The position numbers and the translations under genes were made by a program. Positions 1,270 through 31,500 of a stretch of DNA of 43,174 nt are shown in pieces. The notes under the pieces were generated by a model, which made no database searches, was not told the DNA's origin, and saw only the letters and a program-made list of their open reading frames with translations. The first letter of the stretch is position 1, and each line of letters opens with the position of its first letter. The stretch comes from an uncultured Verrucomicrobiota bacterium (lineage in GTDB: Bacteria > Verrucomicrobiota > Verrucomicrobiia > Limisphaerales > CAIMTB01): the NCBI GenBank assembly GCA_903844265.1, contig CAIMTB010000049.1, positions 1-43,174 of the forward strand, read 5' to 3'.

Positions 1270-3906
1270 ATGAACCCAGCGATTCCCCACACCTCGGCCA
1301 TCCTCTCGCGACTCCTCCTCCTCGCCACGCTTTGCTCCACCGCCGCCGCCGCCCCGAAGCCGATCACCGACGCCCATCGCATCCTCTTCATCGGCGACAG
1401 CATCACCTACGGCGGTGAATACGTGGAGTTCGTCGAGACCTGGCTCCGCACCGCCCACCCCGAATCCCGCGCCGAGATCATCAACGTCGGTCTCCCCAGC
1501 GAAACCGCGTCCGGCCTCTCCGAAGACGGCCACGCCGGCGGCACCTTCCCGCGCCCCGATGTCCACGAGCGCCTGGATCGTGTCCTCGCCAAGATCCACC
1601 CCGACCTCGTCTTCGCCTGCTACGGCATGAACGACGGGATCTACTTTCCCTACGCCGAAGCCCGCGCCGCGAAGTTCCAGGACGGCATCCGCCGCCTCCA
1701 CGACAAGGTCACCGCCACGGGCGCCCGGATTGTCCACGTCACATCGGCGCCCTTCGACCCGAAGCCTCTCGGTGGACGCACGCTTCCCGCCGGTCGCGAC
1801 GCCTATCCCCAACCCTTCGAGGGCTACGACGGTGTCCTGGCCCAATACTCGGAATGGCTTCTCACGCGGAAACACGACGGCTGGGAAGTCATCGATCTCC
1901 ACGGCCCGATGACCCGGTTCCTCGCCGAGGCCCGGCAGTCGAACCCCAACTTCCTGCTCGCCGGCGACGGAGTGCATCCTTCGTCCCAGGGCCATTGGCT
2001 GATGGCCCGCGAAATCCTGCGCTTTCTCGGCGCCGAAGATTCGATCACCCGCGCCCCGACCACCGAAGCCCTCCTTCAATCGCACCCTCAATCCGGAGCC
2101 GTCCTGCAACTCGTCCAGGCACGCCAGCGGATGCTGAAGGATTCGTGGCTCACCGAGACCGGCCACCAGCGCCCCGGCATGGGCAAAGGCAAGCCTCTCG
2201 CCGACGCCCAGATCGAAGCCGCCGCGATCGAGTCGAAACTCCGACCCCTCATCGATCACCCCTTCCCCGGCAAACGCTCATCGTGGTTCGGCTTCGATCG
2301 CTACGACTTCGAGGTCGATGGCAGACCCGTCCTCGTCGTCCTCCCGAAGCGCGAGGCTCCCGGTCGCCCCTGGGTCTGGCATGGCGAATTCTTCGGCCAC
2401 AAACCCAACCCCGACATCGCCCTTCTCGGCCGCGGCTTCCACGTGGTCTACATGAGCGTGCCCGACATGCTCGGATGCCCCAAGGCGGTCGCGCATTGGA
2501 ATGCCCTGTACCTCGAGCTGACCACCCGCTTCCACTTCGCCCCCAAGGCCGCCCTCGTCGGCCTCAGTCGCGGCGGCCTCTACTGCTACAACTGGGCCAC
2601 CGCCAACCCCGACAAGGTCGCCTGCCTCTACGGCGATGCTCCCGTCTGCGACTTCAGGAGCTGGCCCGGCGGCAAGGGCAAAGGTCCCGGTAGCGCCGGC
2701 GATTGGAAGCTCATCCTCGATCGCTACGGCTTCAGCTCCGAGGCCGAGGCCCTGGCCTACAAGGGTAATCCGGTCGACAGCCTCGCCCCACTCGCCGCCG
2801 CCAAAGTCCCGCTCCTCCACGTGTACGGGGACGCCGATGAAGTGGTTCCCTGGGACGAGAACACCGGGGTGATCGCCGAGCGCTATCGCAAGCTCGGCGG
2901 GGACATCACGCTCATCGCCAAGCCCGGCGTGAAGCATCACCCCCACGGCCTCGACGACTCGACCCCGATCGTCAACTTCATCCTCGCCCACGCCGGGACG
3001 CCCGCCCGTGACACCGGACCCCACGACGCCGCAGGCCGCCCGCTCATCCGCAAACTTGGAACGGTCGACGTCGATCTCGTCGAGACTACACCTGTGGTCT
3101 TCGGGGGCCGGCTCCTTCGATTCGAGTGGGTGCGCGACAGCTATTGGAACAACCAGCGCAAGACGAACTACTTCCGCTTCGTGGATCACGAGACCGGCGA
3201 GGCCGGTGAGCCGTTCGCCGACGGCCACGAGTTCGGGAGCGCCTACGTGCATGACGGCACGATGATCGTGACCGGCACGTCCGGCCGCGACCGGGTGAAT
3301 GTGTTCACCTCGCGCGACCTCAAGCATTGGGAATCCTGGCCTGCCATCGCCGGCGGCCGTTACGGGATCTTCAACACCTCGATGACCCGCGCCGGCGGCG
3401 AGTTCGTCCTGATGTTTGAAATCGACAAGCCGGTGGAGGAAGCGGGTGCTGCGTTCACGGCGCGGTTCACGAAATCGCGCGATCTCCACACCTGGACGCT
3501 GACCCCGCCGGAATGCAACTACGCCAAGGACCGCTACACCGCGCCGCATTGCCTGCGGTGGCTCGACGGATGGTTCTACGATTTCTACCTCGAAGCCCGT
3601 GACGGCTACGAGATGCGCGTCGTCCGTTCCCGCGACCTCGCGCACTGGACCCCCAGCCCGCTCAACCCGGTGCTCAAGGCGTCGCCCGAGGACCGCCAGA
3701 TTGCGAACCCGAAGCTCACCGAGGCCCAGCGCAGACGCGTGGCCGACGCGGTGGACAAGAACAACTCCGACATCGATTTCTGCGATTGGCAGGGACGCCT
3801 GATGATCACCTATTCCTGGGGCAACCAACTCGGCGTCGAACACCTTGCCGAAGCCGTGTACGACGGCTCCGAGGCTCAATTCCTGCGAGCCTGGTTCCCC
3901 GAATAA
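1270..3906 (+). CDS. secreted SGNH hydrolase / alpha-beta hydrolase / propeller-like fusion
   Basis: An 878-residue exported protein with three apparent units. Residues 1-28 look like a signal peptide (LLLLATLCSTAAAA). Residues about 35-260 are an SGNH/GDSL esterase: block I FIGDSITYGG with Ser44, block III GMND with Asn121, and block V DGVHPS with Asp233 and His236. Residues about 300-585 are an alpha/beta hydrolase with nucleophile elbow GLSRGG (Ser433), an acid-bearing loop YGDADEVVPW and a terminal GVKHHPHG histidine. Residues about 595-878 resemble a five-bladed propeller of the GH43/GH32 type (repeated 'SRDLKHWES', 'SRDLHTWTL', 'SRDLAHWTP' blade motifs). A periplasmic or extracellular role in removing acyl groups from polysaccharide is inferred. 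The ATG at 1270 is chosen because the frame upstream is only the antisense or shadow of argG. The exact substrate is unknown. Confidence 0.85.
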   Translation: MNPAIPHTSAILSRLLLLATLCSTAAAAPKPITDAHRILFIGDSITYGGEYVEFVETWLRTAHPESRAEIINVGLPSETASGLSEDGHAGGTFPRPDVHERLDRVLAKIHPDLVFACYGMNDGIYFPYAEARAAKFQDGIRRLHDKVTATGARIVHVTSAPFDPKPLGGRTLPAGRDAYPQPFEGYDGVLAQYSEWLLTRKHDGWEVIDLHGPMTRFLAEARQSNPNFLLAGDGVHPSSQGHWLMAREILRFLGAEDSITRAPTTEALLQSHPQSGAVLQLVQARQRMLKDSWLTETGHQRPGMGKGKPLADAQIEAAAIESKLRPLIDHPFPGKRSSWFGFDRYDFEVDGRPVLVVLPKREAPGRPWVWHGEFFGHKPNPDIALLGRGFHVVYMSVPDMLGCPKAVAHWNALYLELTTRFHFAPKAALVGLSRGGLYCYNWATANPDKVACLYGDAPVCDFRSWPGGKGKGPGSAGDWKLILDRYGFSSEAEALAYKGNPVDSLAPLAAAKVPLLHVYGDADEVVPWDENTGVIAERYRKLGGDITLIAKPGVKHHPHGLDDSTPIVNFILAHAGTPARDTGPHDAAGRPLIRKLGTVDVDLVETTPVVFGGRLLRFEWVRDSYWNNQRKTNYFRFVDHETGEAGEPFADGHEFGSAYVHDGTMIVTGTSGRDRVNVFTSRDLKHWESWPAIAGGRYGIFNTSMTRAGGEFVLMFEIDKPVEEAGAAFTARFTKSRDLHTWTLTPPECNYAKDRYTAPHCLRWLDGWFYDFYLEARDGYEMRVVRSRDLAHWTPSPLNPVLKASPEDRQIANPKLTEAQRRRVADAVDKNNSDIDFCDWQGRLMITYSWGNQLGVEHLAEAVYDGSEAQFLRAWFPE

Positions 3907-3913
3907 CGAGCCC

Positions 3914-6900
3914 GTGAATCCCGTGGAACACGCGATCCCGATCCCGATGGCGATCCGGGATCGCCTTGAGCAGGCCCGACGCGAGCTGCTTGATCTCTCC
4001 ACGCGCAACCGGCTCCTCGCCGTCCCGCTCGCCTCCCGCACCGCCCGTGTCGTCGAGATCGTCGATGAGCGCGCGGGCGAGGTTTTCCGTCTCCTCTCCG
4101 CCGAGCGCAAGGCCCTGAGTTTCACGCCCGCTCCTGAGCCGTCGAAGTCAACGAGGATTCAGGCCCCGCCCGACCTGCCGCGGCCGCAGGCGGATTCCCC
4201 GGAACCCGAGGACACCGCGCCCGAGGACACCGCGCTGCCACCGGCGGATGACGTTTGTGATCCATCCACCGGCTTGCCGCGCCGCCACGTCGATGCCCGG
4301 CTCCAGACCCAGCTCACCCCGGAACACCTGCAACGCCGCCTCCTCGATCTCTACCGCGACGCGCAGACGACGGTGGAGGAGACGGGCGTCAACGTCCTCT
4401 ACCTTGCGATCGGGCAGCTGAAGTGGTTCGACGTGGACGACGACGCCAACCCGCGACACGCGCCGTTGGTCCTCGTGCCCGTCCAGCTGGATCGCCGGAC
4501 CGCCTCGGAGCGATTCGTCCTTCGGGCGCGCGAAGAGGACATCGAGGAGAATCTCTCGCTGCAGTCCAAGCTCGAGACGGATCTCGCGATCCGATTGCCC
4601 GAGTTCCCCGACGTCGAAAACCTCGACCTCCCCAGATACTTCTCCGAGGTCTGCACCGCGGTCGCCAGTCATGCCACCTGGGAAGTCCTGCCCGATGCCA
4701 TGGTCCTCGGCTGTTTCTCGTTCGCGAAATTGCTGATGTACCGGGATCTCGACCCCGACACGTGGCCGGCCGAGCGGCCGCTCCTCGGGAACCCGCTGCT
4801 CCCGGCGCTGCTCGTGGACGGCTTCGCCGCATCGGATCCGCTCCTCCCGGAGTCCACCGCGCTTGATGAGCTGATCCCGGTCCAGAAGCTCGACCACGTC
4901 GTCGACGCCGATGGATCCCAGACGTTGGCCATCGAGATGGTTCGTCAGGGTCGGAACCTCGTTCTCCAGGGACCCCCCGGCACCGGCAAGAGCCAGAGCA
5001 TCACCAACATCATCGCCACCGCGGTGCTCGACGGAAGGAAGGTCCTCTTCGTCGCGGAGAAGCTCGCCGCGCTCGAAGTGGTGAAGCGCCGTCTCGAGCG
5101 CGAAGGCCTCGGCGATCTCTGCCTCGAGCTCCATAGCCACAAGGCCGCCAAACGCGCGGTGCTCAACGAGATCGGCCGCACCTGGCGGCTGGGCAAGCCA
5201 CGCAATGACGAGCTCGACGAGATCGTCCCCGGCTTGACCGCACGCCGGACCACGCTGAACAACCACTGCACCGCGCTCCACACGACCCACGCCGCCACCG
5301 GCCTCACGCCTTTTCGCGTCCTCGGCGAATGTGTCCGACTCGAGAACCGCGGCGAATCCGGTGCCACGATCGACCTGCCGGACGCCGCGACCTGGCCAAC
5401 CGCCGAGCGTTCACGGCGCGAAAGCCTGGTCGCCAATCTGGCCGCCTGCGTCCAGCGAACCGGCCTTCCCGCACAAAACCCGTGGCGCGGCGTGGGCCTC
5501 GATGCCGTTCTCCCTTCCGACACCGATCGCGTTCTCGCCCGGGCCGCCGAGGCGTCACGACTTCTTGAGACTTGCCGGATCCAGGCCCGTGATCTGGCAC
5601 GAACCCTCGGCAAAGCTGAACCCGCGTGCCTCGCGGAAGTCCGAAACCTGCGAGGCATGGCCCGCCACGCCGCCGCCGCGCCCACGTTCGATCGCACTTC
5701 AATCAGCAATCCCCTCTGGGACAATGATCCCGGTGCCATCCGCGACCTCGTGGCTGTCGGACATCGATACCGCGCCGCAACGGAAACCCTCGACCTGAAG
5801 GTGACCGACGCCGCATGGGAAAAGGATTTTGAAGCGGTCCGATCCTCGATCGCGGCCCACGGCCCATCGCTGTTCCGGTTCCTGAACGGAGAATACCGCC
5901 GGGCTCTCGCCGAGTTGAAGGGCGTCGCCAAGGGCACGATCCCTTCCGCCTTCGAGGAGCGGCTCGCGCTGGTCGACGAACTGGTTGCAGGCCAGCGCGC
6001 CCTTCGCGCGCTCCGCGCAGCCAGCGACGTCGGCAACGCAGCCTTCGGCTCCGCGTGGCGTGCCGAACGCACCGACTGGGCCCGGTGCTCAGCCGTGGCA
6101 GACTGGATCGACGCGCAGCGCGCCGACGGTTTGGACGCGACCTTTCGCCAGGCGATCGCAGCCCTCCCCGACCCTCGCGCACTCGGGCCCGCCGGCGATG
6201 ACCTCGAGCGCGCGCTGGGTCCGGTCTCCAGCGCGCTCCACGAGTTGACCACCGCGCTCCAACTCGACCTCGCAGCCGCATTCGGACCCGGCGTCGAGCA
6301 TCTCGAGAACATCCCGCTCCAGCCGTTCGCCGATCGGCTGACCGCGTGGCACGAACAACCGGAAGCGCTGTCGCTCTGGACGCGTTACCACGGCTGCGAC
6401 CAGGAGGGACGACAACTTGGCCTCGGCCCGCTGCTCGACGGCGTGCGTGACGGAACGGTCCCCCAAGCGGAAATCGTGGATGCGTTTCGTCGCGCCTGCT
6501 TCAACCAGATCCTCCGCGAGATGATGCGCTCGAATCCGCAGCTCGCCCGTTTCGACGGCGCAGGCCACGCGCAGATTGTGGAGGAATTCCGGGGGCTGGA
6601 TCGCGAGCGGCTTCGTCTCTCCCGTTACCGCGTTCTGGCCGCGCACCACGCACGAATGCCAGGCATCAGCGCCGGCGTCGGCGCCGTCGGGATCGTGAAC
6701 GGCGAACTCGAGCGCAAACGCGGCCACCGGCCCGTCCGCCAGCTGCTCCGCGACGCCGGCTCGGTCGTCCAATCCATCAAGCCGGTGTTCATGATGAGCC
6801 CGCTTTCCGTGGCCCAGTTCCTCGCCCCGGGCGCCGTCGAATTCGACCTTCTTGTCATCGACGAAGCCAGCCAAGTCCAGCCCGTCGACGCCCTCGGCGC

Positions 6901-8725
6901 CATCGCCCGCTGTCGGCAAATCGTGGTCGTGGGCGACAGCCGCCAACTTCCTCCAACGCGCTTTTTCGCGAGGGTCACCGGCGATGACAGCGAGACGACG
7001 AAGGAGTCCGGCGCCGCGCGCGTGCAGGATCTCGAGAGCATCCTGGGCCTGTGCTCCGCGCGAGGGCTGCCCGGCACCATGCTCCGGTGGCATTACCGGA
7101 GCCGACATCACTCCCTCATCGCGGTCTCGAACCGGGAATTCTACGAGAACCGGCTGTTCATCGTGCCCAGTCCCCGCGAGGTCGGCCCCGATCTCGGCCT
7201 GCAGTTCCAGCTGGTTCCCGAAGGCGTGTTTGACAGCGGCGGCACCGGAACCAACCGCATCGAGGCCAAGGCGGTGTGCCGCGCCGTGCTCGAGCACGCA
7301 CGACAATTCCCCGCACTTTCCCTCGGCGTGGCCGCGTTCTCGGTGCGCCAGCAACAGGCCATCCTCGACGAACTGGAACTTCTCCGACGCGAACATCCCG
7401 ACACCGAGGCGTTCTTCGCCGGCCACCCCGAGGAACCGTTCTTCGTGAAGAACCTCGAGACCGTCCAGGGCGACGAACGTGACGTGATCCTCATTTCCAT
7501 CGGCTATGGCCGCGACGCCGATGGGTTCCTACGAATGAACTTCGGACCGCTCGGGGCCGACGGCGGCGAACGCCGACTCAACGTCCTCATCTCCCGCGCC
7601 CGCCGTCGATGCGTGGCCTTCTCCTCCATCCAGGCCGCCGACATCGACCTCTCACGCGCCGGCGGCCGCGGCGTCGCCGCACTCAAGACCTTCCTCCAGT
7701 TCGCCGAAACCGGCCGCCTCGAAGTCGCCGAAGCCAGCTCCCGCCAACCCCAGTCGCCCTTCGAGGAATCCGTCCGCGACGCTCTCCAGACACACGGACA
7801 CTCGATCCATCCCCAGGTCGGCATCGCCGGCTTCTTCATCGACCTCGGAGTCGTCGACCCCGATCAACCCGGCCGCTACCTCCTCGGCATCGAGTGTGAC
7901 GGCGCCACCTACCACGCCTCACGCAGCGCCCGCGACCGCGACCGGCTCCGACAAGCCGTCCTCGAAGACCACGGTTGGAGAATCCACAGGATCTGGAGCA
8001 CCGACTGGTTCCAGCGCCCCGCCGAACAACTGCGCCAAACCCTCGCGGTCATCGAGGACGCCCGCCGCACCCGCCCCGCCCCACGACCGCAGGAATCACC
8101 CCAGGCAACCTCGCCGACACGCGCCGAAATCGAGCGCGCCGATCCCGCCGGGATCGACGACTCCCGACCCGCGTTCGCCGCAGAGCCCTACCAGGTCGCC
8201 GACTTCGCACCGCCTCGCGGCGCCGAACCCGCCGCGCTTCCCACCGGAGCCATGACCGACCTCCTCCAACGCATCATCGAGGTCGAGGGCCCGGTGCACG
8301 AGGACGAGCTGGTCGCCCGGGTCCGCGACCTCTGGGCCCTCCCGCGTGCCGGCGCCCGCGTCCAGGACGCCGTCGCCCGCGGCGTGAGGGCCCTGCTCGT
8401 CGCCCGACGCTGCGTCCGCGAGGACGACTGCCTCGATCTCCCCGACCGCCCGGTCCGGGTTCGAAGCCGCGACGGCGTCCGGTCCGCGAACCTCCGCAAG
8501 CCGGACTTCCTCCCGCCGTCCGAAATCCGCGCCGCGATCCTCGCCATCGCCGCCGCGGTCCACGGCGTGAATCGCGCTGAACTGCCCACGGCCGTGGCCC
8601 GCGTGCTCGGTTTCAAGACCACCCCGGCCTCGCTCCGCGTCCTCGTCGAACGGCAGTGCAGCCGGCTTGAGACGGACGGTCTGCTCACCGGCCAAAACGG
8701 ATTCCTCCTCCCAGGCCAGGTCTGA
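3914..8725 (+). CDS. DUF4011-type SF1 helicase with C-terminal Vsr/MTES-like nuclease and DUF3320-like tail
   Basis: About 1603 residues. The N-terminal part (about 10-330) has the DUF4011 signature (RRELLDLSTRNRLLAVP, NVLYLAIGQLKWFD). A split superfamily 1 helicase follows: Walker A GPPGTGKS at 353-360, Walker B VIDEAS with Asp983, motif III VVGDSRQLPPTRFF, motif V ETVQGDERDVI, and motif VI ISRARRRC. Residues about 1283-1375 form a PD-(D/E)XK/Vsr-like nuclease (FEESVRDALQ, GIECDGATYH, Glu1327, Asp1329, HRIWSTDWF). The last 150 residues resemble DUF3320. The architecture is known from predicted anti-phage helicase-nucleases; a DNA-directed defence role is inferred. No methylase or partner gene is adjacent. 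GTG at 3914 lies 7 bases after the upstream stop; ATG at 3947 is an equally good alternative start. Confidence 0.88.
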   Translation: MNPVEHAIPIPMAIRDRLEQARRELLDLSTRNRLLAVPLASRTARVVEIVDERAGEVFRLLSAERKALSFTPAPEPSKSTRIQAPPDLPRPQADSPEPEDTAPEDTALPPADDVCDPSTGLPRRHVDARLQTQLTPEHLQRRLLDLYRDAQTTVEETGVNVLYLAIGQLKWFDVDDDANPRHAPLVLVPVQLDRRTASERFVLRAREEDIEENLSLQSKLETDLAIRLPEFPDVENLDLPRYFSEVCTAVASHATWEVLPDAMVLGCFSFAKLLMYRDLDPDTWPAERPLLGNPLLPALLVDGFAASDPLLPESTALDELIPVQKLDHVVDADGSQTLAIEMVRQGRNLVLQGPPGTGKSQSITNIIATAVLDGRKVLFVAEKLAALEVVKRRLEREGLGDLCLELHSHKAAKRAVLNEIGRTWRLGKPRNDELDEIVPGLTARRTTLNNHCTALHTTHAATGLTPFRVLGECVRLENRGESGATIDLPDAATWPTAERSRRESLVANLAACVQRTGLPAQNPWRGVGLDAVLPSDTDRVLARAAEASRLLETCRIQARDLARTLGKAEPACLAEVRNLRGMARHAAAAPTFDRTSISNPLWDNDPGAIRDLVAVGHRYRAATETLDLKVTDAAWEKDFEAVRSSIAAHGPSLFRFLNGEYRRALAELKGVAKGTIPSAFEERLALVDELVAGQRALRALRAASDVGNAAFGSAWRAERTDWARCSAVADWIDAQRADGLDATFRQAIAALPDPRALGPAGDDLERALGPVSSALHELTTALQLDLAAAFGPGVEHLENIPLQPFADRLTAWHEQPEALSLWTRYHGCDQEGRQLGLGPLLDGVRDGTVPQAEIVDAFRRACFNQILREMMRSNPQLARFDGAGHAQIVEEFRGLDRERLRLSRYRVLAAHHARMPGISAGVGAVGIVNGELERKRGHRPVRQLLRDAGSVVQSIKPVFMMSPLSVAQFLAPGAVEFDLLVIDEASQVQPVDALGAIARCRQIVVVGDSRQLPPTRFFARVTGDDSETTKESGAARVQDLESILGLCSARGLPGTMLRWHYRSRHHSLIAVSNREFYENRLFIVPSPREVGPDLGLQFQLVPEGVFDSGGTGTNRIEAKAVCRAVLEHARQFPALSLGVAAFSVRQQQAILDELELLRREHPDTEAFFAGHPEEPFFVKNLETVQGDERDVILISIGYGRDADGFLRMNFGPLGADGGERRLNVLISRARRRCVAFSSIQAADIDLSRAGGRGVAALKTFLQFAETGRLEVAEASSRQPQSPFEESVRDALQTHGHSIHPQVGIAGFFIDLGVVDPDQPGRYLLGIECDGATYHASRSARDRDRLRQAVLEDHGWRIHRIWSTDWFQRPAEQLRQTLAVIEDARRTRPAPRPQESPQATSPTRAEIERADPAGIDDSRPAFAAEPYQVADFAPPRGAEPAALPTGAMTDLLQRIIEVEGPVHEDELVARVRDLWALPRAGARVQDAVARGVRALLVARRCVREDDCLDLPDRPVRVRSRDGVRSANLRKPDFLPPSEIRAAILAIAAAVHGVNRAELPTAVARVLGFKTTPASLRVLVERQCSRLETDGLLTGQNGFLLPGQV

Positions 8726-8738
8726 GCAATCGCTCAGA
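8721..8738. terminator. symmetric hairpin containing both convergent stop codons
   Basis: TCTGAGC at 8721-8727, loop AATC, GCTCAGA at 8732-8738: a perfect 7-base stem. The TGA of the helicase gene (8723-8725) lies in one arm, and the TGA of the barrel gene (read on the minus strand, 8734-8736) lies in the other. It may act as a short bidirectional terminator, though no T-run is present on either side. Confidence 0.4.
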
Positions 8739-9849
8739 ACCGCCGCGATACCGTCGCCACGATCATGAAGTCGGCGAAGGCCGCGTCCCCGTGTTGGGCA
8801 ACGCCCGTCGCCGCAGACTGCTGCTCATCCGGCACGCTCACCTCGCGGTTCCGATACAACGCCACGGGCGCAGTCACGCCAAACATCCATGGACCGCGCG
8901 TCAGGCCCACGCCCGGCTCGATCGCGATCGAGAGCCCCGGCCGGCGGAAACCGTCGCTGCCCCCGATGGCATCATTCGCCGGCACGCCCTCGATGCGCCC
9001 TCCCAACGAGAGCGAAAGACCCCACGACGGCATCACCACATAGTCGAAGCCCACGCGCCCGAGGTAGGTGTCGGCGATGGACATGATCGCCTCGTACGGA
9101 TTCGACCGATAGGTCGGCACGCCATTCTTCTCCTCCGGCGTCATTGTGTAGGCGCCATTCACATAGGCGTTCAGCTGGTCCGTGAAGCGATAATAGCCGT
9201 ACATCTCCATCACGATTCCCCAACCTCCATCCCCCGGCTGGATCGACTGATCCACGGTCCGCTCCCGCGCCACGATCTGCCGGGTCTTCGCGTCGTACAC
9301 CTGGAAGGTGTCCCTCACGTCGTCCTGCCCGGTCGGCGCATCCACACCCAGGCCGAGTTGCACGTTCCACTTGGGATGGCTGGCCGGGTCGATCACCCAG
9401 GCCGCTCCCGTCAGGCGGATGTCGCCGAGGCCCGCCGATTGCGTCGAGAACCGCTGCAGGATCGTCCTCGCGACGTCGTTCGACCGCACCACCTGCGAGC
9501 GATCATTGAAGGAGAACGGCAACGTCAGCGTCGCGCTGTACCGCGGCGTGAACGCATAGGCCAGGCTCAGGTCGACGAAATGTGAGTCGTTGATCACCTG
9601 GCTTCCCTCCGCCTGCCGCTGCGTCTGCTCCACATCGCCGACGAAATGCCGATCGCTGTGCAGCCATCGATACCCCGTCGCCGCCGAGAATCCCTCCGCC
9701 GGCTGAAGCTCGACTCCGGGAACCATGAAGCAACTCCCCGAGCGCGCCGCCACGCAACCCTGGGCCAGGGCGCTCGAATCGTGCGAAAGGGCGAAAACCG
9801 CCAGCGCGGACCTCAGAAATCGAAAGGCGTGTGTGCTTGGAGTAACCAT
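8734..9849 (-). CDS. outer-membrane beta-barrel protein, unknown substrate
   Basis: A 371-residue protein. The N-terminus has a basic start, a hydrophobic run (FLRSALAVFALS) and a likely cleavage after ...SSALA-Q near residue 29. The mature part alternates polar and aromatic residues in strand-like segments (HFVDLSLAYAFTPRYSATLTLPFSF, KWNVQLGLGVDAPTG, GFDYVVMPSWGLSLSLGGRIEG, MFGVTAPVALYRNREV) and ends in Phe (VSRRF), the classic C-terminal residue recognised by the BAM machinery. It is probably an outer-membrane channel or porin-like barrel. I cannot assign a specific family or cargo. It is convergent with the helicase (8-base gap) and lies downstream of the cbb3 locus on the same strand, separated by 163 bases, so it is probably its own unit. 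Confidence 0.75.
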   Translation of the reverse strand: MVTPSTHAFRFLRSALAVFALSHDSSALAQGCVAARSGSCFMVPGVELQPAEGFSAATGYRWLHSDRHFVGDVEQTQRQAEGSQVINDSHFVDLSLAYAFTPRYSATLTLPFSFNDRSQVVRSNDVARTILQRFSTQSAGLGDIRLTGAAWVIDPASHPKWNVQLGLGVDAPTGQDDVRDTFQVYDAKTRQIVARERTVDQSIQPGDGGWGIVMEMYGYYRFTDQLNAYVNGAYTMTPEEKNGVPTYRSNPYEAIMSIADTYLGRVGFDYVVMPSWGLSLSLGGRIEGVPANDAIGGSDGFRRPGLSIAIEPGVGLTRGPWMFGVTAPVALYRNREVSVPDEQQSAATGVAQHGDAAFADFMIVATVSRRF

Positions 9850-13563: not shown

Positions 13564-15690
13564 TCAGGGTTTGGCGGCCGCGGGCTTGGCCTGTGCCTTG
13601 ATGTCGGTGCCGAGCCGTTGGAGGTACGCGATCATGGCGATGATCTCACGATCGGGTTCGGCCTTGATCATGCCAGTCTTCAGTCCCTCGACCACGACCT
13701 TGACCTGGGTCTCAAGATCCTTCTGCGCTGTCGCCTCGTACCCCGCAGGGTACGGGACGCCGACGCTCCGGAGCGCCTTGATGCGGGCGGGCAGCGACGT
13801 GGTGTCGAGCTTCTGTGACAGCAGCCACGGATACGGCGGCATGATGGAGCCCGGCGACGTGGTGCGCGGGTTTTCCATGTGGTTGAAGTGCCACGCGTTC
13901 GGGTACTTCCCACCCACGCGGTGCAGATCCGGGCCGGTCCGCTTGGAACCCCACAGGAACGGATGGTCATACACGTACTCACCCGCCTTCGAGTACTCAC
14001 CGTAACGCTCGGTCTCGGATCGCAACGGACGGACCATCTGCGAGTGGCAGCCGAGGCAGCCTTCGCGGATGTACAGGTCGCGGCCAAGCACTTCGAGCGG
14101 GGTGTACGGCTTCACCGACGAGATGGTCGGGACGTTCTCCTTGATGAGATACAGCGGGACGATCTCGATGAGACCGCCGATCAGGACGGCAACGGCTGCG
14201 AGGACCGTGAAGAGGAGCGGCCTGGCCTCGAGCCAGCGGTGGCCCGAACCGTCGTGCTCCGCCTTCGCCGACACGGGCACCTGGACCTCCTCGTCCTCGA
14301 CCGGCTTGCCGCCCTTTGCGGTCTTGTAGAGATTGTAGGCCATGATGAGGACCCCGACGATGAAGAGGGACCCGCCGACCGCGCGGAGCCTGTGCATCGG
14401 GAGCAGCCGGATCACCGTCTCCAGGAAGCTCGGATACTGGAGGAACCCGTCGGCGGTGAACTGCTTCCACATGAGCCCCTGGGTCACGCCACTGAAGTAC
14501 ATCGGGACGACGTAGAACATCATGCCGAGGAGCCCGATCCAGAAGTGGTAGTTGGCCAGCTTGATGGAGTAGAGATTCGTGCGGTAGAGACGCGGGAAGA
14601 GATAGTAGAGAAGACTGAATGTCAGGAAGCCATTCCAGCCGAGCGCGCCGGTATGGACGTGGGCGATGGTCCAGTCGGTGTAATGCGAGAGTGAATTGAC
14701 GCTCTTGATGGCGAGCATGGGTCCCTCGAGCGTCGCCATGCCGTAGGCGGTGACGGCGACGACCATGAACTTGAGCATGGGATCCTGGCGGACCTTGTCC
14801 CAGGCGCCGCGGAGGGTGAGGAGGCCGTTCAGCATGCCGCCCCAGGAGGGAGCCACGAGCATCAGCGAGAACACCATGCCGAGGGACTGGGCCCAGTCGG
14901 GGAGCGCCGTGTAGAGAAGGTGATGCGGGCCGGCCCAGATATAGAGGAAGATCAGGCCCCAGAAATGGATGATCGACAGGCGGTAGGAAAACACCGGGCG
15001 GTTGGCGGCCTTCGGCAGGAAGTAATACATCAGGCCCAGGTAGGGCGTGGTGAGGAAGAACGCCACGGCATTATGCCCATACCACCACTGCACCAGCGCG
15101 TCCTGGACGCCGGCGTAGACCGAGTAACTCTTGAACGCGCCCGCGGGCACCTCGAGTGAGTTGAAGATGTGCAGCACCGCGACGGTGATGGCCGTGGAGA
15201 TATAGAACCAGATCGCCACGTACATGTGTTTCTCTCGGCGCCTCGCTATCGTGCCGAACAAATTCACGGCGAACACCACCCAGACCAACGCGATGCAGAT
15301 GTCGATGGGCCATTCCAGCTCGGCGTATTCCTTCGAGGTGGTGATGCCCAGCGGGAGGGTCAGGGCGGCCATCACGATGATCGCGTTCCACCCCCAGAAA
15401 TGGAACCAGCTCAGCGCGTCGCTGAAGAGCCGCGCCTTGCACAGGCGCTGGAGGGAATAATAGATGCCCATGAACATGCCGTTGCCCACGAAGGCGAAGA
15501 TCACGGCGTTCGTGTGCAGCGGCCGCAGGCGGCCGAAGGTGATGTATTGCAGGCTGAGGTTGGCGGCCGGGTAGAAGAGCTGGATCGCGGCCAGCAGTCC
15601 GGCAACCATCCCTACGATGGCCCAGATCACCGTCGCTATGCCAAAGGCACGGATGATCTTGTTGTCGTAACGGAATGTCTCGACGTTCAT
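13564..15690 (-). CDS. ccoNO: fused cbb3 cytochrome c oxidase subunits I and II (CcoN-CcoO)
   Basis: A 708-residue fusion of the catalytic subunit and the mono-haem subunit of the high-affinity oxidase that reduces O2 to water. Residues 1-475 are CcoN, with about 12 membrane helices and haem/CuB histidines in RPLHTNAVIFAF, WWYGHNAVAFFLT, AGPHHLLYT and IAHVHTGALGWNGF. A charged linker (KGGKPVEDEEVQVPVSAKAEHDG) leads to CcoO at about 500-708, with a membrane anchor (LLFTVLAAVAVLIGGLIEIVPLY) and haem motif CLGCH (Cys545, Cys548, His549), then MVRPLRSETERYGEYS and HFNHMENPR. The fusion is known in Bacteroidota and some PVC bacteria. It overlaps ccoS by 4 bases (ATGA), indicating translational coupling. 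Confidence 0.96.
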   Translation of the reverse strand: MNVETFRYDNKIIRAFGIATVIWAIVGMVAGLLAAIQLFYPAANLSLQYITFGRLRPLHTNAVIFAFVGNGMFMGIYYSLQRLCKARLFSDALSWFHFWGWNAIIVMAALTLPLGITTSKEYAELEWPIDICIALVWVVFAVNLFGTIARRREKHMYVAIWFYISTAITVAVLHIFNSLEVPAGAFKSYSVYAGVQDALVQWWYGHNAVAFFLTTPYLGLMYYFLPKAANRPVFSYRLSIIHFWGLIFLYIWAGPHHLLYTALPDWAQSLGMVFSLMLVAPSWGGMLNGLLTLRGAWDKVRQDPMLKFMVVAVTAYGMATLEGPMLAIKSVNSLSHYTDWTIAHVHTGALGWNGFLTFSLLYYLFPRLYRTNLYSIKLANYHFWIGLLGMMFYVVPMYFSGVTQGLMWKQFTADGFLQYPSFLETVIRLLPMHRLRAVGGSLFIVGVLIMAYNLYKTAKGGKPVEDEEVQVPVSAKAEHDGSGHRWLEARPLLFTVLAAVAVLIGGLIEIVPLYLIKENVPTISSVKPYTPLEVLGRDLYIREGCLGCHSQMVRPLRSETERYGEYSKAGEYVYDHPFLWGSKRTGPDLHRVGGKYPNAWHFNHMENPRTTSPGSIMPPYPWLLSQKLDTTSLPARIKALRSVGVPYPAGYEATAQKDLETQVKVVVEGLKTGMIKAEPDREIIAMIAYLQRLGTDIKAQAKPAAAKP

Positions 15691-23295: not shown

Positions 23296-26200
23296 ATGCA
23301 AACCATTCGACGTCTCTTTGTCCGTGCCTTCGTGGCACTGGGTCTCGTCCTGGCCCTCGCGCCCGCAACCGCGCGAGCGGCCGACCCACTTCGTATCTTC
23401 ATCCGGGGCGGGGTGAAGACCCACGGGCCTAACCAGCACGATCACCCGCGCTTCCTCGGCGAATGGACCAAGCTCCTCGGCGAGCGCGGCCTCAAGGTCG
23501 ACGGGGCCATGCAATTCCCGTCGGGCCCGCAACTCGACGCGATCGACGTGCTGATCATCTACGCCGCCGACGGCATGAAGATCACCGGGGACGACCGTGC
23601 CGTCTTCGAGAAATTCATCCGGCGCGGCGGCGGTGTCATGGTCCTGCATGACGGCGTTGTCAGCGGGGACCAGCAGGAGTGGTGCAAACAGGTCATCGGC
23701 GGGACGTGGCGCTGGCCCGATGCGACGTTGCCGAAGGAGAAGGCCACCAAGTGGCTCGAAGGCGACGTCGGCATCTACTTCACCGACCTCGATCATCCCA
23801 TCAGCCGGGGGCTCTCGAACTTCGACTGGAAGGACGAGATCTACTACGACCTCGACATGGCCCCCGACGCCGGGGTCCTCGCCACCAGCTTCCACAACGT
23901 CCACATCATCGCGCCACAACTCTGGACCTATGAGAGGACGTGGTCGGGCGGGACCGCGCCGTACCGCGCGTTCGTCTCGCTCCCGGGCCACGAGTTCGAC
24001 GTCTTTTCCACCGCGCAATACCGCTCCATCCTGCTGCGCGGCATCGCCTGGGCTGGCAAGCGGGCCAATGTCGATGAGTTCTGCAAACCCGAGGAACTGG
24101 CGTCCCTCAAGTACCCGCCCGGAGGACCGAAGCCCGCATCCGAGGCGATCAAGACGTTCCAGCTCCACCCCGATTTCAACCTCTCGCTTGCCGCCGACGA
24201 AAACGTGGCGGAGAAGATCATGTCGGTCGATTGGGATTCCCGTGGCCGCATGTGGGTCGTCGAGACGCCCGAGTACCCGAACGGCCGCGACATCAACAAG
24301 AACGACGCGAAGATCACGCCCTGGCGCATCCGCGACCCCGAGAAGTACCCGCTCGGTTCCAAGGAATCCCGTCCCGCCCGCGACCGCATCTCGGTCCTCG
24401 AGGACACCAACGGCGACGGGATCATGGACAAGAAGACGGTGTTCTACACCGGCCTCGAGCTGCCCACTTCGCTGGTGTTCTACAAGGACGGCGTGATCGT
24501 GTCGCAGGCTCCCGACACGCTCTGGATCCGCGACACCGACGGGGACGGCAAGGCCGACAAGGTCGAGGTCCTGTTCACAGGTTGGGGAACGTTCGACGCC
24601 CACGCGGTCACGAGCAATCTGCGGTGGGGTCCCGATGGCTGGATCTATGGCTCGGTCGGTTACAGCTCGGGCGAACCGCATTCCCCGGATGGCTCCCGCA
24701 AGTTCGGCCGGATCTCCGCGGGACTGTACCGCTTCCGCCCCGACGGTTCGGCGCTCGAGCAATACGCCGCGGGTTCCTGCAACACCTGGGGCTGCGAGGT
24801 CGCGCCCGACGGGGAGATCTTCTTCAGCACCGCCACCTGCGGGGAACCGATCCTCCACGTCGTGATGCCCGAGAAGATCATCAGCCGCGCCGGCGTCCCG
24901 GGTATGCGCGCCGCAAAGTCGATCATCGAGGAAAACAAGATTTTCACGCCGCGCCACGAGACCCGGCAGCCGTACCTCCAGATCGACTGGGTCGGCGCCT
25001 TCACCGCGGCCTCGGGCTCCACGATCTACGACGGCGGCGCATGGCCCGGAAAGTGGCAGGGCCCGAGCTGGTCCTTCTTCCTGCATGAACCGACGGTCTG
25101 GCTGACCCACCACGAATTCCTCGATCCCACCGGCGTGACCTATCAGGGCCGGCGCGAGGAGGGGCGCAAGGACACCCACTTCTTCACCAGCACGGATTAC
25201 TGGTTCAAGCCGATCCACAGCCAGGTCGGTCCCGACGGCGCGTTGTACGTCGTCGATTTCTACAACCAGATCGCGGTCCACAACGACACGCGCGGCCCCG
25301 CCCACGGCGCACGCAACGCCGCCTCGCGTCCCGACCGCAACCACGAGTTCACCCGGGTCTGGCGCATCCAGCACAAGCAGGCCCAGGTCCTGCCTCCGTT
25401 CAAGCTCGATGCCAGGGATGCAGCGGGCCTGGTCAACATGCTGGACCACCCGAACGGCTGGGTTCGCACCACCGCCAACCGACTCCTCAGCGAAGGCGCT
25501 GGTCGCACCGTCATCGCCGCGATCGAGACCAAGGCCAACGCCGCGAAAACCTCCTACGGCCGCATGCAGGCCCTCTGGGTCCTGCACAACCTCGGCTCCG
25601 ATGACAACGACCTGCTCCTCGCCGCCGCCGGCGACGACGACCTCGTGGTCCGCAAGAATGCGATCCGCATCGCGGCCGAGTCCGACCATGCCGGCGTCGA
25701 AATCCCAGCCCGCCTGATCCGGGCCCGCCTCGCCGACCCGAACCCGCGCGCCCGGTTGCTGGTGTTCACGGCCCTCACCACGTTCACGCCGAGCCGCGAC
25801 ATGGCGGATGCCGTGGTCGAGGCCTGGCCGACGTTGAAGGACAAGTATCTCGAGACGGCAGCCCTCGCGGTCAGCGCAGGCGACCCACTGCTGTTCCTCG
25901 ACGCCGCGCTCGATGCGCGCGATCCCGCGTTCCTCGCCGGCATGGTCCCGCATCTGGCCCGGCAGGTCGCACAGCGCCAGGATGCCGTGCTCGCCGCCAA
26001 GGCCGTCGCGCTGCTCGCCTCAAAGCCCGCCGCCACCGATGCACTCAAGGCGCTGGTGCTCGAGTCCCTCGCCGCCAACCTCAAGGCCAACGTGGCACCC
26101 CTCGCGGACGATGCACTGCGCGCCGCGTTGAAGAGCCTCGTCGCCTCGCAGGCCACCGCCGGTGCGGCCCTGCCACTCGTCGCACGCTGGAACCTCACCG

Positions 26201-28428
26201 AAGCGCTCGGCGATTCACTCAAGGGCGCCGTCGCCAAGGCCGTTTCGAAACTCTCCGACAAATCGCTCTCCGACGACGCCCGCGCGCAAATCGCGGTGAA
26301 CCTCCTCGGCGTCCGCCGCCTCGATGCCTCCATCGTCACGGCCGTCGCAACCCTCGTCGGCAGCGATGCCAGCGCCGGATTGCAGCGCCGGATCATCGAC
26401 GCCCTGGGAACGACCGCCGATCCCGCCGCGGGCGCCGCCATGCTCGCCGCGATGCCATCCCTCGATTTCGACCTGCGCGAGGCCGCCTTCGGTCAGCTGC
26501 TCAAGCGGGCCGACTGGTCCGCCTCCGTCGTCCAGGCCCTGGCCGACAGGAAGCTGGACCCGCGCCTGCTCGGCACCTCGAACCTCTATCGCCTTCGCAC
26601 GCACTCCGACAAGGCGGTTGCGGAACGCGCCGGCACGACCATCGACGAGCTCAAGGGCCCCGAGGAGAAGCAGAAGGACCAGCTCATCGCGAAGTTCCAG
26701 CCTGAGGTCGCGAAGCCGGGCGACGTCGCCAACGGCGCGAAGCTCTTCACCCAGAACTGCGCGGTCTGCCACAAGTTCAAGAACGAAGGCGCCGAGTTCG
26801 CCCCGAACCTCACCGGGATGGGCGCCCACGGAGCCGAGGAACTGATCGTCCACATCCTCGACCCGAACCGCATCGTCGAGCCCAACTTCGTCTCCGTCAG
26901 CATCGAGACGAAGGACGACCTCAGCTACGACGGCATCGTCCTGCGCGAGAACAACTCGGCCGTGGTCGTCCGCAACCAGACCGCCGAGACCGAGATTCGC
27001 AAGGACAACATCAAGACCCGCCGCTCCACCGGCCGCTCCCTGATGCCCGAGGGATTCGAGCAGCTCGGCGCGGTCGGCCTGCGCGACCTGCTCACATTCC
27101 TTTGCGTCGACGAACAGCGGTTCCGCATCCTCGACCTCCGCACGGCGTTCACCGCCAACACCACCCGCGGCATCTACATGACCGCGGACTCACGCGATGA
27201 ATCGCTGCGGTTCCGCAAGTGGGGAACGATCAAGCATCGCGATGTTCCCTTCGACATCGTCAGCACCACCCGCACACCGACCGGCAACAACGCCGTCGTT
27301 CTCCAGGGCGGCGACGGGATGTCCCGCAACTACCCGAAGGAAGTCTCCTTCAAGGTCGGCATGGCCGTGTCCCGGCTCCACTTCCTCGGCGGCGTCGCCG
27401 GCTGGGGCTATCCGCTCGGCGAAAAGGACAAGCCCGCCGCGAAAATCACGGTCCACTATGCCGGCGGCAAGACTGATGAATTCGTGCTGCGCAACGGTGT
27501 CGAGATCGCCGATTACATCTCCAAGATCGACGTTCCCGGCTCGGAAGCGCTCGAGAACCTCGACCAGTTGCTCCTGCAGGGACGTCAACTGCGCTACTTC
27601 AGCCGGACGCTCCCGAAGAAGGCCGTGGTCGAGAAGATCACCCTCTCGAGCTACGCCAATGAAGTCGCACCCACGTTCGTCTCCGTGACCGCCGAAATCG
27701 GCGATCTCCCGCCCGGCACCGCGGCTTCAGCGTCCAGCGCCGCGGCCGCAACCACCCCCAGGCCCGCGATCACAGTGAAGTGGGCTTCAGGCCTCAGGGT
27801 CCTCCTCATCGGCGGCGGCGCATCCCATGACTACCAGCGCTGGTTCAACCTCGCCGACGTCGCACTGCTGAATGGCACCGGCAAGATGTCCGCCGCCTAC
27901 CTCGAGCCACAGGATGTCTCGGTCGACTCCGTCCGCTCCGCCGACGTCCTGCTCATCAGCGCCAACAAAGCGTTCCCTGATGCCGCGGTGCGAAAGGCCA
28001 TCTTCGACCACGTCGAAGCCGGCAAGGGCCTCGTCATCCTGCATCCGGGCCTCTGGTACAACTGGCCGGACTGGCCGGAATTCAACAAGACACTCGCGGG
28101 CGGCGGGTCGCGCGGTCACGACCGACTCGGCGAGTTCGAGGTGGTGGTGAACGGCGGCGATCATCCCCTCACCCGGGGTGTGGCCGGCACGTTCAAGATC
28201 ACCGACGAACTGTATTGGTTCGAACCCGACACGACCGGAACCCCGGTGAAGGTGCTCGCCACCGCACAATCGGCGGCGAAGAAAACGGCGTTCGCGCAGG
28301 TCTTCGTCGTCGAGCATCCCAAGGCCCGCATCGCCGGCATCACCCTGGGCCATGATGGTCTGGCCCATTCGCTCGATGCCTACCAGACACTGCTCAAGAA
28401 TGCGGTGACCTGGGTCGCCGGAAAATAG
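23296..28428 (+). CDS. secreted PVC-type dehydrogenase/cytochrome c with ThuA domains at both ends
   Basis: A 1710-residue exported protein. A signal peptide ends near residue 29 (ALAPATARA). Residues about 30-265 are a ThuA-like (glutamine amidotransferase-fold) domain. About 285-700 is the PVC membrane-bound dehydrogenase propeller (MWVVETPEYPNGRD, SVLEDTNGDGIMDKKTVF, GADGALYVVDFYNQ-type repeats). About 700-1130 is a HEAT-like helical solenoid. A cytochrome c domain with haem motif CAVCH (Cys1155, Cys1158, His1159) and the PVC haem-binding region (NLTGMG, DPNRIVEPNF, RSLMPEGFEQL) follows. Residues about 1280-1460 are a beta domain, and about 1494-1710 a second ThuA-like domain (RVLLIGGGASHDYQRWF, GKGLVILHPGLWYNW). 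Periplasmic oxidation of a sugar or similar substrate, passing electrons to the haem, is inferred. A terminator follows. Confidence 0.9.
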   Translation: MQTIRRLFVRAFVALGLVLALAPATARAADPLRIFIRGGVKTHGPNQHDHPRFLGEWTKLLGERGLKVDGAMQFPSGPQLDAIDVLIIYAADGMKITGDDRAVFEKFIRRGGGVMVLHDGVVSGDQQEWCKQVIGGTWRWPDATLPKEKATKWLEGDVGIYFTDLDHPISRGLSNFDWKDEIYYDLDMAPDAGVLATSFHNVHIIAPQLWTYERTWSGGTAPYRAFVSLPGHEFDVFSTAQYRSILLRGIAWAGKRANVDEFCKPEELASLKYPPGGPKPASEAIKTFQLHPDFNLSLAADENVAEKIMSVDWDSRGRMWVVETPEYPNGRDINKNDAKITPWRIRDPEKYPLGSKESRPARDRISVLEDTNGDGIMDKKTVFYTGLELPTSLVFYKDGVIVSQAPDTLWIRDTDGDGKADKVEVLFTGWGTFDAHAVTSNLRWGPDGWIYGSVGYSSGEPHSPDGSRKFGRISAGLYRFRPDGSALEQYAAGSCNTWGCEVAPDGEIFFSTATCGEPILHVVMPEKIISRAGVPGMRAAKSIIEENKIFTPRHETRQPYLQIDWVGAFTAASGSTIYDGGAWPGKWQGPSWSFFLHEPTVWLTHHEFLDPTGVTYQGRREEGRKDTHFFTSTDYWFKPIHSQVGPDGALYVVDFYNQIAVHNDTRGPAHGARNAASRPDRNHEFTRVWRIQHKQAQVLPPFKLDARDAAGLVNMLDHPNGWVRTTANRLLSEGAGRTVIAAIETKANAAKTSYGRMQALWVLHNLGSDDNDLLLAAAGDDDLVVRKNAIRIAAESDHAGVEIPARLIRARLADPNPRARLLVFTALTTFTPSRDMADAVVEAWPTLKDKYLETAALAVSAGDPLLFLDAALDARDPAFLAGMVPHLARQVAQRQDAVLAAKAVALLASKPAATDALKALVLESLAANLKANVAPLADDALRAALKSLVASQATAGAALPLVARWNLTEALGDSLKGAVAKAVSKLSDKSLSDDARAQIAVNLLGVRRLDASIVTAVATLVGSDASAGLQRRIIDALGTTADPAAGAAMLAAMPSLDFDLREAAFGQLLKRADWSASVVQALADRKLDPRLLGTSNLYRLRTHSDKAVAERAGTTIDELKGPEEKQKDQLIAKFQPEVAKPGDVANGAKLFTQNCAVCHKFKNEGAEFAPNLTGMGAHGAEELIVHILDPNRIVEPNFVSVSIETKDDLSYDGIVLRENNSAVVVRNQTAETEIRKDNIKTRRSTGRSLMPEGFEQLGAVGLRDLLTFLCVDEQRFRILDLRTAFTANTTRGIYMTADSRDESLRFRKWGTIKHRDVPFDIVSTTRTPTGNNAVVLQGGDGMSRNYPKEVSFKVGMAVSRLHFLGGVAGWGYPLGEKDKPAAKITVHYAGGKTDEFVLRNGVEIADYISKIDVPGSEALENLDQLLLQGRQLRYFSRTLPKKAVVEKITLSSYANEVAPTFVSVTAEIGDLPPGTAASASSAAAATTPRPAITVKWASGLRVLLIGGGASHDYQRWFNLADVALLNGTGKMSAAYLEPQDVSVDSVRSADVLLISANKAFPDAAVRKAIFDHVEAGKGLVILHPGLWYNWPDWPEFNKTLAGGGSRGHDRLGEFEVVVNGGDHPLTRGVAGTFKITDELYWFEPDTTGTPVKVLATAQSAAKKTAFAQVFVVEHPKARIAGITLGHDGLAHSLDAYQTLLKNAVTWVAGK

Positions 28429-28554: not shown

Positions 28555-31500
28555 TCACCTCGCCGCCGCGTCGACCACGCGCAACTCGACATCCGCCCAG
28601 TACCCGAATTCCCACGCCCAGTCGTTCGCCGCGTTCTCGAGACGCAGCGCGACTTTGTGGCCTGCAAATTCCTTGAGATCGACAACCACGGTTCGCCACC
28701 GATCTCCGCCATGCCCGATGATCTCGTCCTTCATGACGCGGCCATCGACCCGAACCCGCAGCTGCCAATCCCCCTGATCGTGCGCAGCCACCGCGAAGCG
28801 CAACGTCATGGCCCTGTCCTTCGGCAGCTCGACCACCCGCTCCAACGCCGCAGGAGTGACGCGGTCCGGAAACGGATGCGTCATGAGCACATTCGCGCGG
28901 CCCAGATGTTCCGGAAGCTTCCGTGGTGATCCCTGGAAATCCGGGGCGACGACCTTCCACTCCGGATTCCACAACGCAACGGACTCACGGTCCGTCGACG
29001 CCGCACCCTGCGCTGCGGCTTCCGCACTGGCGTGTCCGCCCACGCTCCCAAGACGCTCCCTCTTCGCAGGAGTCAGCGGGCCCTCCTGCGGCGGCGAGAG
29101 GACGAACCAGATCAGATTTCGGAGATCGGCATCCGGCATTTGCTCGAGGCCCTCGGGCATGACGGAACTCTCCAGGACCCGCTGGCTCTTCACGTCGGAC
29201 CTGGCCACCACCTCCTCCTTCCCGCCCTGCAGGAGAAGGCGCACACGGGCGTCGGTGTTCTCCATGAGCCGGCCCGCGATGACGCGGTCGTCGCGCGTCT
29301 CCACTTCGACCTGCTCGTAACCCGCACCGATGACCTGGTTCGGATCCACGACATTCCACAACAACGCGTCGAGCGAAGACCGGCCGACGCCGGTGAGATC
29401 GGGTCCAACCCCTTCGCCTTCGCCGTGAAGCTTGTGGCAGACGAGGCAGGTCTTCTTCGCGACCTCATGCCCCGCGGCAATGTCGGGTTCTCCGAGCAGA
29501 ACCATCCTGCGCTTCGACACGAGCAACGCGGCCTTGTCGGCACCCGATTCGCGGAATCGCCCGATGACAGACTTGGATTCCTCACGGATGTAGTCGTCCT
29601 TGTGCTGCACCAATCCGCGGATCACGGGCGCCCCGAAATCACTGGCGGAGATCGCCCCGCCCCGAACCTGCGCGAGCAGCGCGAGGGCCCAACGGCGACG
29701 CGATGAAAGTGTCGATGCCGCCGCACGACGCGCCGCCGGCGACATCCCCTTCCAGCGAGGCAGCATCTTCTCGGGAACATCGTCGCCGCCGATCTCGCCG
29801 AGCGCCGCGAGCGCCTCGAGCTGCACAGCCTCCGGAACGTCTTCGCTCAGGAGCTGGAGCATCGCGTCCCGCGTCGCCGCGCTCCGTCCCTTTCGAACCG
29901 TCTGCACCGCGCGGACGCGCTGCTCGACGGCGGCCTTCGGATCCAGAGCCTGTCCGAGGACCACGTTCATCGCGGTCGCGTCACCCCAGAGCGCCCCAAG
30001 TTTTTCGCCGCGTGCGGTGAGCGAGGCATTGCCGGTCGAGGTGAGTTTCGCGATGAACGGGCCGACCGGCCGGCCCGGCAACGACGCCTTCCCTTCCTGG
30101 CCCTTGATCAATCCGTCGAGTGCCGCCTCGGCCAGGGCCGGACTGAGCGGAATCACTTTCTCCACAAATTCCACCGCGCGATCCACCGACTCGGCATCGC
30201 CCAAATCACAGAGGCGCCGCAGGGTCTTGCCTGCGAGGATCCCGGCCAGTGGCAGGTGCGAGGGTCCCTTCTCCGCAAGCCACGAAAGCACCGACCCGCT
30301 CTCCGCCGCAGCCACCGGCTCCACCGCCTCCCAGATCATGAACGGCAACACCGGATCCCGGGCGTCCGAGGATGCTGCAATCAGCGCCTCCAGCGTCGGC
30401 CCGAGATCCACGCCCTGCCTCAGCGGCGGAGAGTCCACGGTCAATTGGCCCGAGACGAACTGCCGGCAGGCGACCGCCACGGAGAGCCGGACCGCCGCCT
30501 CCCTGTCCGCGCCGAGTTTCGCGAGCAACGACAGTTCCGCTTCACTGCCCACCTGCCGTTCACCGATCAACCGCGCAGCACACGAACGGAGCAACGGCTC
30601 GGCGTCCACCGCCGCCTTCGCCAGGATTTCATCCGTAATCTGCCCGGAGCCATGCAGCGTCCACAAGGCTGCCAGCCGCGCCGTTGAAGGCGTTGCGAGG
30701 AGCTTTCCACCGAGCGAACCCACCGGCAGAGGGCCATCCGGAACGCCTGACGCAAACAACTTCTCCAACGCGCCGCGAACCGCCGGCTCCCGCCGCTCGT
30801 TCAACAAGCGCTGCGCCGTCCGCCGCTGCCAGGCGTTGGGATGGGCGAGGAGACGCACGAGATCCGCGCCGGTCAGCTTCGCGAGGTCCATTTTGGGGTC
30901 GGGTCGTGAGGGCACAGGTTTGCCCTTTTCCTTTCCCGTGTAGACCACGCGCCAGATGCGGCCGAGCTCGCGATCAACCCCCGCCGGGTCGGCGTTCGCG
31001 TTCTGGTAACAGGGGTAGCGATCGTACCAGTCCATGATCCACACCGCGCCGTCAGGCCCGACCTGGATGCTGACCGGCATGAACCAACCGTCGTTGGCGC
31101 GGACGAGGTCGCGAAAGCGGGACCCGGTGAACGACGAGCCGTTCGGAGTGAGGCGATCCTGGTGGATCGCGTTGTCGTGGATGTTTCCCTGGAGGATCGT
31201 TCCCTCGTTTTCCGCGGGGAACAGATCGCCCTGATAGACCTGGATGCCCGCGTAGGCCGCCATGTGGTGCTTGTGATCGTTGATGGAATGCAACGACTCA
31301 TAGGCGTACGGATTCGGCGGCGACCCCGCCTGACGATCATAGATCCCACCCGGCACCAGATGGAACAGGTGCTCGATCACGCAGGCACTGACATAGGCGT
31401 TGCCCGCGGCATCGAAATCGACGCCCCACGGATTGCTCGTCCCCTCGGCATAGACCTCGAAGCGCCTCGTCTGCGGGTGCATCCGCGCAACGCCCGCGGT

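Follow-up and report, generated by a model that had tools for sequence, protein, structure and literature searches.

Is a large helicase-nuclease gene that stands alone between a hydrolase gene and a membrane barrel gene an anti-phage gene, and how could its product act with no methylase at hand? The question is raised by a stretch of 43,174 nucleotides (the window) from contig CAIMTB010000049.1 of an uncultured Verrucomicrobiota bacterium of the order Limisphaerales, for which a first-pass annotation had proposed a defence gene. From sequence profiles and distribution we consider it fairly probable that this is an accessory gene whose product, of the PDC-S37/ProA type, defends against phages on its own. 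If the protein is protective, one chain without partner or methylase would tell invading DNA from that of the host, and would do so in many phyla; with the DefenseFinder Hhe model, relatives have been reported from Proteobacteria only.

Domains and family of the helicase-nuclease

The open reading frame is intact over about 1600 codons and single-copy in its 6.0 Mb, 671-contig assembly. Its start may be GTG 3914 or ATG 3947, since in 29 of 79 homologues an ATG lies no more than two codons away from the position of the latter; residue numbers count from GTG 3914. The features of the locus are as follows.

1270..3906, + strand: left flanking hydrolase, stop 7 bp before GTG 3914; Pfam below cut-off
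3914..8725, + strand: PDC-S37/ProA-type helicase-nuclease gene; product of 1603 aa with GTG 3914 as start, 1592 aa with ATG 3947
3983..4573, + strand: DUF4011, N-terminal alpha/beta region, residues 24-220; Pfam 4.7e-41
4970..4993, + strand: Walker A GPPGTGKS, residues 353-360, with K359; invariant in 80 of 80 aligned rows
5222..6655, + strand: all-helical insert within the helicase, residues about 437-914; AlphaFold2 model, block pLDDT about 75-93
6860..6874, + strand: Walker B/motif II DEASQ, residues 983-987; invariant in 80 of 80 aligned rows
6932..6955, + strand: motif III GDSRQLPP (GDxxQLPP), residues 1007-1014; from the alignment
7571..7600, + strand: motif VI RRLNVLISRA, residues 1220-1229; from the alignment
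7760..8044, + strand: REase_MTES_1575 (Vsr-type) nuclease, residues 1283-1377, with E1284, D1310, E1327 and D1329; Pfam 5.9e-36 and conservation
8243..8437, + strand: winged helix 1 (DUF3320), residues about 1444-1508; Pfam DUF3320 at 1444-1485, 8.8e-13, and HHHEE pattern in the model
8516..8713, + strand: winged helix 2, residues about 1535-1600; HHHEE pattern in the model
8734..9849, - strand: right flanking barrel-type outer-membrane protein, ending 8 bp from the helicase-nuclease stop; Pfam below cut-off

Pfam also finds the SF1 helicase stretches AAA_11/AAA_12, and all catalytic motifs are present, which bears out the single chain of about 1600 residues with helicase, Vsr-like nuclease and DUF3320-like tail described in the first-pass annotation. 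The alignment used throughout has 80 rows, 79 homologue loci and the window; homologue loci are the best 80 of 227, and seven of 86 loci (L014, L042, L044, L065, L080, L084 and L148), with partial or split genes, were left out. The helicase motifs, K359, D1310, D1329, R1340, R1342, D1343 and R1344 are invariant in all 80 rows, and E1284 and E1327 of the nuclease, the latter in an E1327-C-D1329 motif, are conserved in 99% of them. K359 and D1329, which had been put forward as residues to mutate, are sound targets because of this invariance. In L014 and L148 the homologue consists of two ORFs, the break falling within the nuclease or close to it and separating the winged-helix tail, by frameshift or as a natural split.

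Comparison with defence-system HMMs, the check first proposed for this gene, gives a full-length match to PADLOC PDC-S37 (PDLC05009; 1836 bits, residues 13-1595 onto 5-1541 of 1550). No difference between the helicase-nuclease and PDC-S37, an entry that is itself a phage defence candidate, was found. NCBIfam NF058533, "anti-phage protein ProA", is matched at 1506.4 bits, about 6 bits above its curated cut-off of 1500, over model positions 356-1902, the N-terminal 355 positions of ProA having no counterpart. Same-genus relatives G002 and G004 fall just below that cut-off (1450.6 and 1448.8 bits); among relatives, three with the long form of the helical insert described below score 1547-1630 and two with the short form 1452 and 1382. 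These profiles place the gene most fittingly in PDC-S37, with a likeness to ProA from profile position 356 on.

Part of the ProA N-terminus is matched by the transglutaminase-like C-terminal region of an unrelated same-genus protein (L005 1-2433) that also has a weak CHAT match; the transglutaminase-like call was made by eye and its Pfam support is weak (E 0.065). Used as phmmer query, this region has no match in any of the 80 aligned proteins. A transglutaminase domain split off nearby was likewise discarded, with no match among 1118 neighbour ORFs.

Hhe (NCBIfam NF042953, PADLOC PDLC02194, DefenseFinder Gao_Hhe), said to originate from Gao 2020, has the same order of helicase and nuclease domains and a longer middle part, its positions about 603-1102 being unmatched by the helicase-nuclease. 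Membership is ruled out on score: the match reaches 1032.9 bits in two stretches against a curated cut-off of 2000, and none of 30 relatives exceeds 2000. According to passages of PMC9090908, DefenseFinder found Gao_Hhe only in Proteobacteria.

A published description of this architecture dates from 2013. Sections of PMC3710099 name the MTES_1575 REase and winged helices overlapping DUF3320, and argue that giant proteins of this kind work without modification genes, DNA being probably recognised via the winged helices. They share with the protein studied here an SF-I helicase, a Vsr REase and tandem wHTH domains in one chain with no modification genes; their HEPN and transglutaminase domains were not detected here, Pfam giving no HEPN family in the helicase-nuclease at E up to 0.1. 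The defence candidacy is already foreseen by the existing family models and by this paper. A literature search found no paper naming PDC-S37, no source paper for ProA, no paper joining DUF4011 with Vsr and no phage assay for the PDC-S37/ProA-type subfamily; a DUF4011 helicase of P. syringae is mentioned in a passage of PMC6589727. The two-sized insert and the same-genus empty site reported below are useful additions, the helicase-nuclease being otherwise an ordinary member of its family.

Distribution and neighbourhood

The helicase-nuclease is present in three of five genomes of the genus, the two without it being 94% and 82% complete. Across the order 74 of 196 genomes match PDC-S37 somewhere, many only partly; nine reach at least 1500 bits, and with a split match in G170 about 10 of 196 carry the gene. 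These figures rule out a core housekeeping gene in the genus or the order. In G003, a genome of the same genus, the two flanking genes stand convergent about 220 bp apart with no helicase-nuclease gene; the hydrolase relative there, 70% identical, adjoins the barrel gene, and only these two genes are syntenic. The empty site fits gain in one genome or loss in the other alike, and two genomes of one genus, only one of which has the gene here, offer a natural comparison. The first-pass annotation had held that conservation as a core gene in all relatives would speak against defence; comparison of related genomes reveals patchy presence instead.

A tree from a quick search pairs the window with G004 (support 100) and places G002 elsewhere in a 13-row clade where Verrucomicrobiota are mixed with one Planctomycetota and one Acidobacteriota row, which suggests horizontal transfer of the helicase-nuclease. 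As for an insertion signature, the gene ends bear no repeat of more than 6 bases, whether direct or inverted. Foreign composition was considered and set aside (GC 68.4% against 65.1% for the window, GC3 unremarkable). Carriage by phages yields two matched records, none at 80% coverage. Elsewhere in the tree, a homologue from a record titled Bacillus subtilis SK7B5 (L019) groups among Stenotrophomonas sequences (support 98); the assembly may be contaminated or wrongly labelled.

The flanking genes are a hydrolase and a membrane barrel as first described, both with weak, below cut-off Pfam support. The hydrolase appears to be a fusion of an SGNH/GDSL-type part, recognised by eye, with alpha/beta hydrolase and glycosidase-like parts. 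A Pfam scan of the window shows no methylase or defence gene in the 10 further ORFs that it covered, in line with the earlier remark on the absence of a methylase. The term "stand-alone" also holds, because between distant loci no family of neighbours keeps a constant position (87 loci, naive longest-ORF calling). A hidden partner gene was sought among 10 neighbour families present in at least three loci and rejected: seven of the 10 occur only in close relatives and three lie at differing places and distances.

Ten neighbours scanned in close relatives include DNA ligase, lipase-like, pilin-like DUF1559, sulfatase-modifying, RlaP, P450 and Usp proteins, three have no match, and none of the 10 is a clear defence gene. 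A PADLOC scan at 1e-8, which counts families rather than proteins, assigns 236 families (at most two members each) to 147 proteins next to short-form loci (58 loci, at most two proteins on each side) and six families to 99 control genes, these from one genus. Two of the matched members match PDC-S37 itself and are probably pieces of split copies.

Plasmids provide a different setting. The family matches 433 plasmid records, at least 14 of them at 80% coverage or more among the matches listed, and the neighbourhoods of six of 15 listed rows were inspected. Defence-type genes, in which we presumptively include SIR2 and DUF262, lie near four of the six copies, one set per copy: SIR2, a DUF4297 anti-phage-associated protein, two DUF262 genes and a type I-E CRISPR-Cas system. 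The other two copies have nearby helicase and nuclease genes whose role is unclear.

The proposal of a candidate defence gene is strengthened by the full-length PDC-S37 and ProA matches, the patchy presence and the empty site; the invariant ATPase and nuclease residues, the scatter of same-genus copies within the 13-row clade, the plasmid neighbourhoods and the greater number of PADLOC families next to the gene than among control genes also speak for it. It is weakened by the housekeeping genes that surround this locus and its nearest relatives. Against it also stand the missing ProA positions 1-355 and the DUF4011 gene of P. aeruginosa, which passages of PMC10250203 report in every isolate, on the right flank of the defence hotspot cDHS1. 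The same housekeeping neighbours and the same core P. aeruginosa gene agree with a role in DNA repair or replication restart, in which a Dna2-like helicase-nuclease, gained and lost by transfer, would process ends or flaps with no direct anti-phage part; Dna2 is moreover among the structural matches. We hold this to be unlikely, though deserving attention: repair enzymes are rarely as patchy as about 10 of 196 genomes, the PADLOC and NCBIfam families carry the names PDC-S37 and ProA, and defence-type genes adjoin the four plasmid copies.

A UPF1-like fold with a helical insert

Two structure models cover the protein. That of residues 12-1195 (pLDDT 83.5, pTM 0.66) comprises the alpha/beta N-terminal part, the first RecA domain and the all-helical insert, and that of residues 965-1603 (pLDDT 84.9, pTM 0.57) a RecA domain, the nuclease, a linker and the two winged-helix patterns. 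The best structural matches of both are UPF1-like helicases. In the structure search the RecA-domain fold gives Z 19.0 (rmsd 3.5 over 254) with IGHMBP2, 18.8 (rmsd 3.3 over 261) with UPF1 and 16.3 with Dna2; the N-terminal model gives 19.5, 18.8 and 18.8 with the same three proteins. Sequence searches agree, with hits to IGHMBP2, Sen1, SETX and Dna2. The likeness to UPF1-like SF1B helicases lies in a common fold of the RecA domains, and the models point to a probable UPF1-like SF1B helicase with a predicted 5'-to-3' polarity. DUF4011 is probably the stalk/1B part of such a helicase, since by alignment end points IGHMBP2, UPF1, Dna2 and Sen1 align from residue 1 of the N-terminal model and UvrD and PcrA from about residue 312.

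UPF1-like helicases often act on RNA. The protein could accordingly be imagined as a UPF1/SETX-like RNA helicase using its nuclease on transcripts or R-loops during infection, a reading drawn from top matches (IGHMBP2, UPF1, Sen1/SETX, Aquarius) that are mostly RNA helicases. We find it improbable, as Dna2, a DNA enzyme, scores nearly as well and the nuclease, followed by winged helices, belongs to a Vsr-type DNase family according to sections of PMC3710099.

The insert sets the family apart in size: Walker A and motif II are 113 residues apart in IGHMBP2 (254 to 367) against 580 in the family (370 to 950 of the profile). With whole models as query, no fold match clearly covers the insert alone, a result with no bearing on the fold of the insert itself. 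Its length is bimodal, with 472-503 residues in 51 of 80 rows (480 in the window) and 709-737 in the other 29. All long-form rows except one form a single clade of 28, 27 from Pseudomonadota and one from Acidobacteriota; the remaining one, L033 (420-5849), is from Verrucomicrobiota and sits in the otherwise short-form clade of the window, so that a second origin of the long form, or its exchange, may have taken place. Local alignments suggest that divergent helical modules were added in the long form. A duplication is left unproven by self-comparison of the insert, which gives no internal repeat.

A speculative idea, to which we give little credence, is that the insert, standing where UPF1-like helicases have their small 1C domain, is a DNA-gripping ruler arm in two sizes (about 480 and about 736 residues). 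The arm would determine how far the protein has to move along DNA, starting at a free 5' end, until its own nuclease is set free, and discrimination would then depend on DNA state and length within one protein and require no modification enzyme.

Proposed mode of action

Read as an anti-phage protein, the helicase-nuclease may work as follows, by inference from its domains and from Hachiman. The UPF1-like SF1B motor would load on single-stranded ends or gaps as phage DNA enters, replicates or recombines, with DUF4011 and the helical insert gripping the strand. ATP-driven movement would bring the Vsr-type nuclease onto the DNA, which it would cut, and the tandem winged helices could restrain the nuclease or read DNA. 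The trigger would be a DNA state, not a methylated sequence, so no methylase would be needed. The first-pass annotation supposed that the protein itself or DNA ends provide the self/non-self discrimination, which is plausible; a version of this view was argued in print in 2013, in sections of PMC3710099. In Hachiman HamAB a helicase sensing DNA state releases a nuclease (passages of PMC12278908), and the likeness is one of mechanism by analogy only: Hachiman has two proteins, and the same passages describe HamB as binding 3' single-stranded ends and resembling Hel308, not a UPF1-like helicase.

A scan of positions 3600-9000 detects no sigma-70-like promoter and no terminator, the sigma-70 model not being telling for this phylum. 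That the gene is a passenger, brought by transfer and not expressed or not functional here, finds some echo in this missing promoter and in the mere 7-8 bp to each flanking gene, but is very improbable for a frame intact over 1600 codons with every catalytic residue kept.

Elsewhere in the window, a single 708-aa ORF (13564-15690) resembles by eye, from its translation, CcoN and CcoO of the cbb3 oxidase fused into one chain. Two very large DUF7133 proteins are encoded on opposite strands at 23296-28428 and 28555-32193, one with ThuA and cytochrome c, the other with HEAT repeats.
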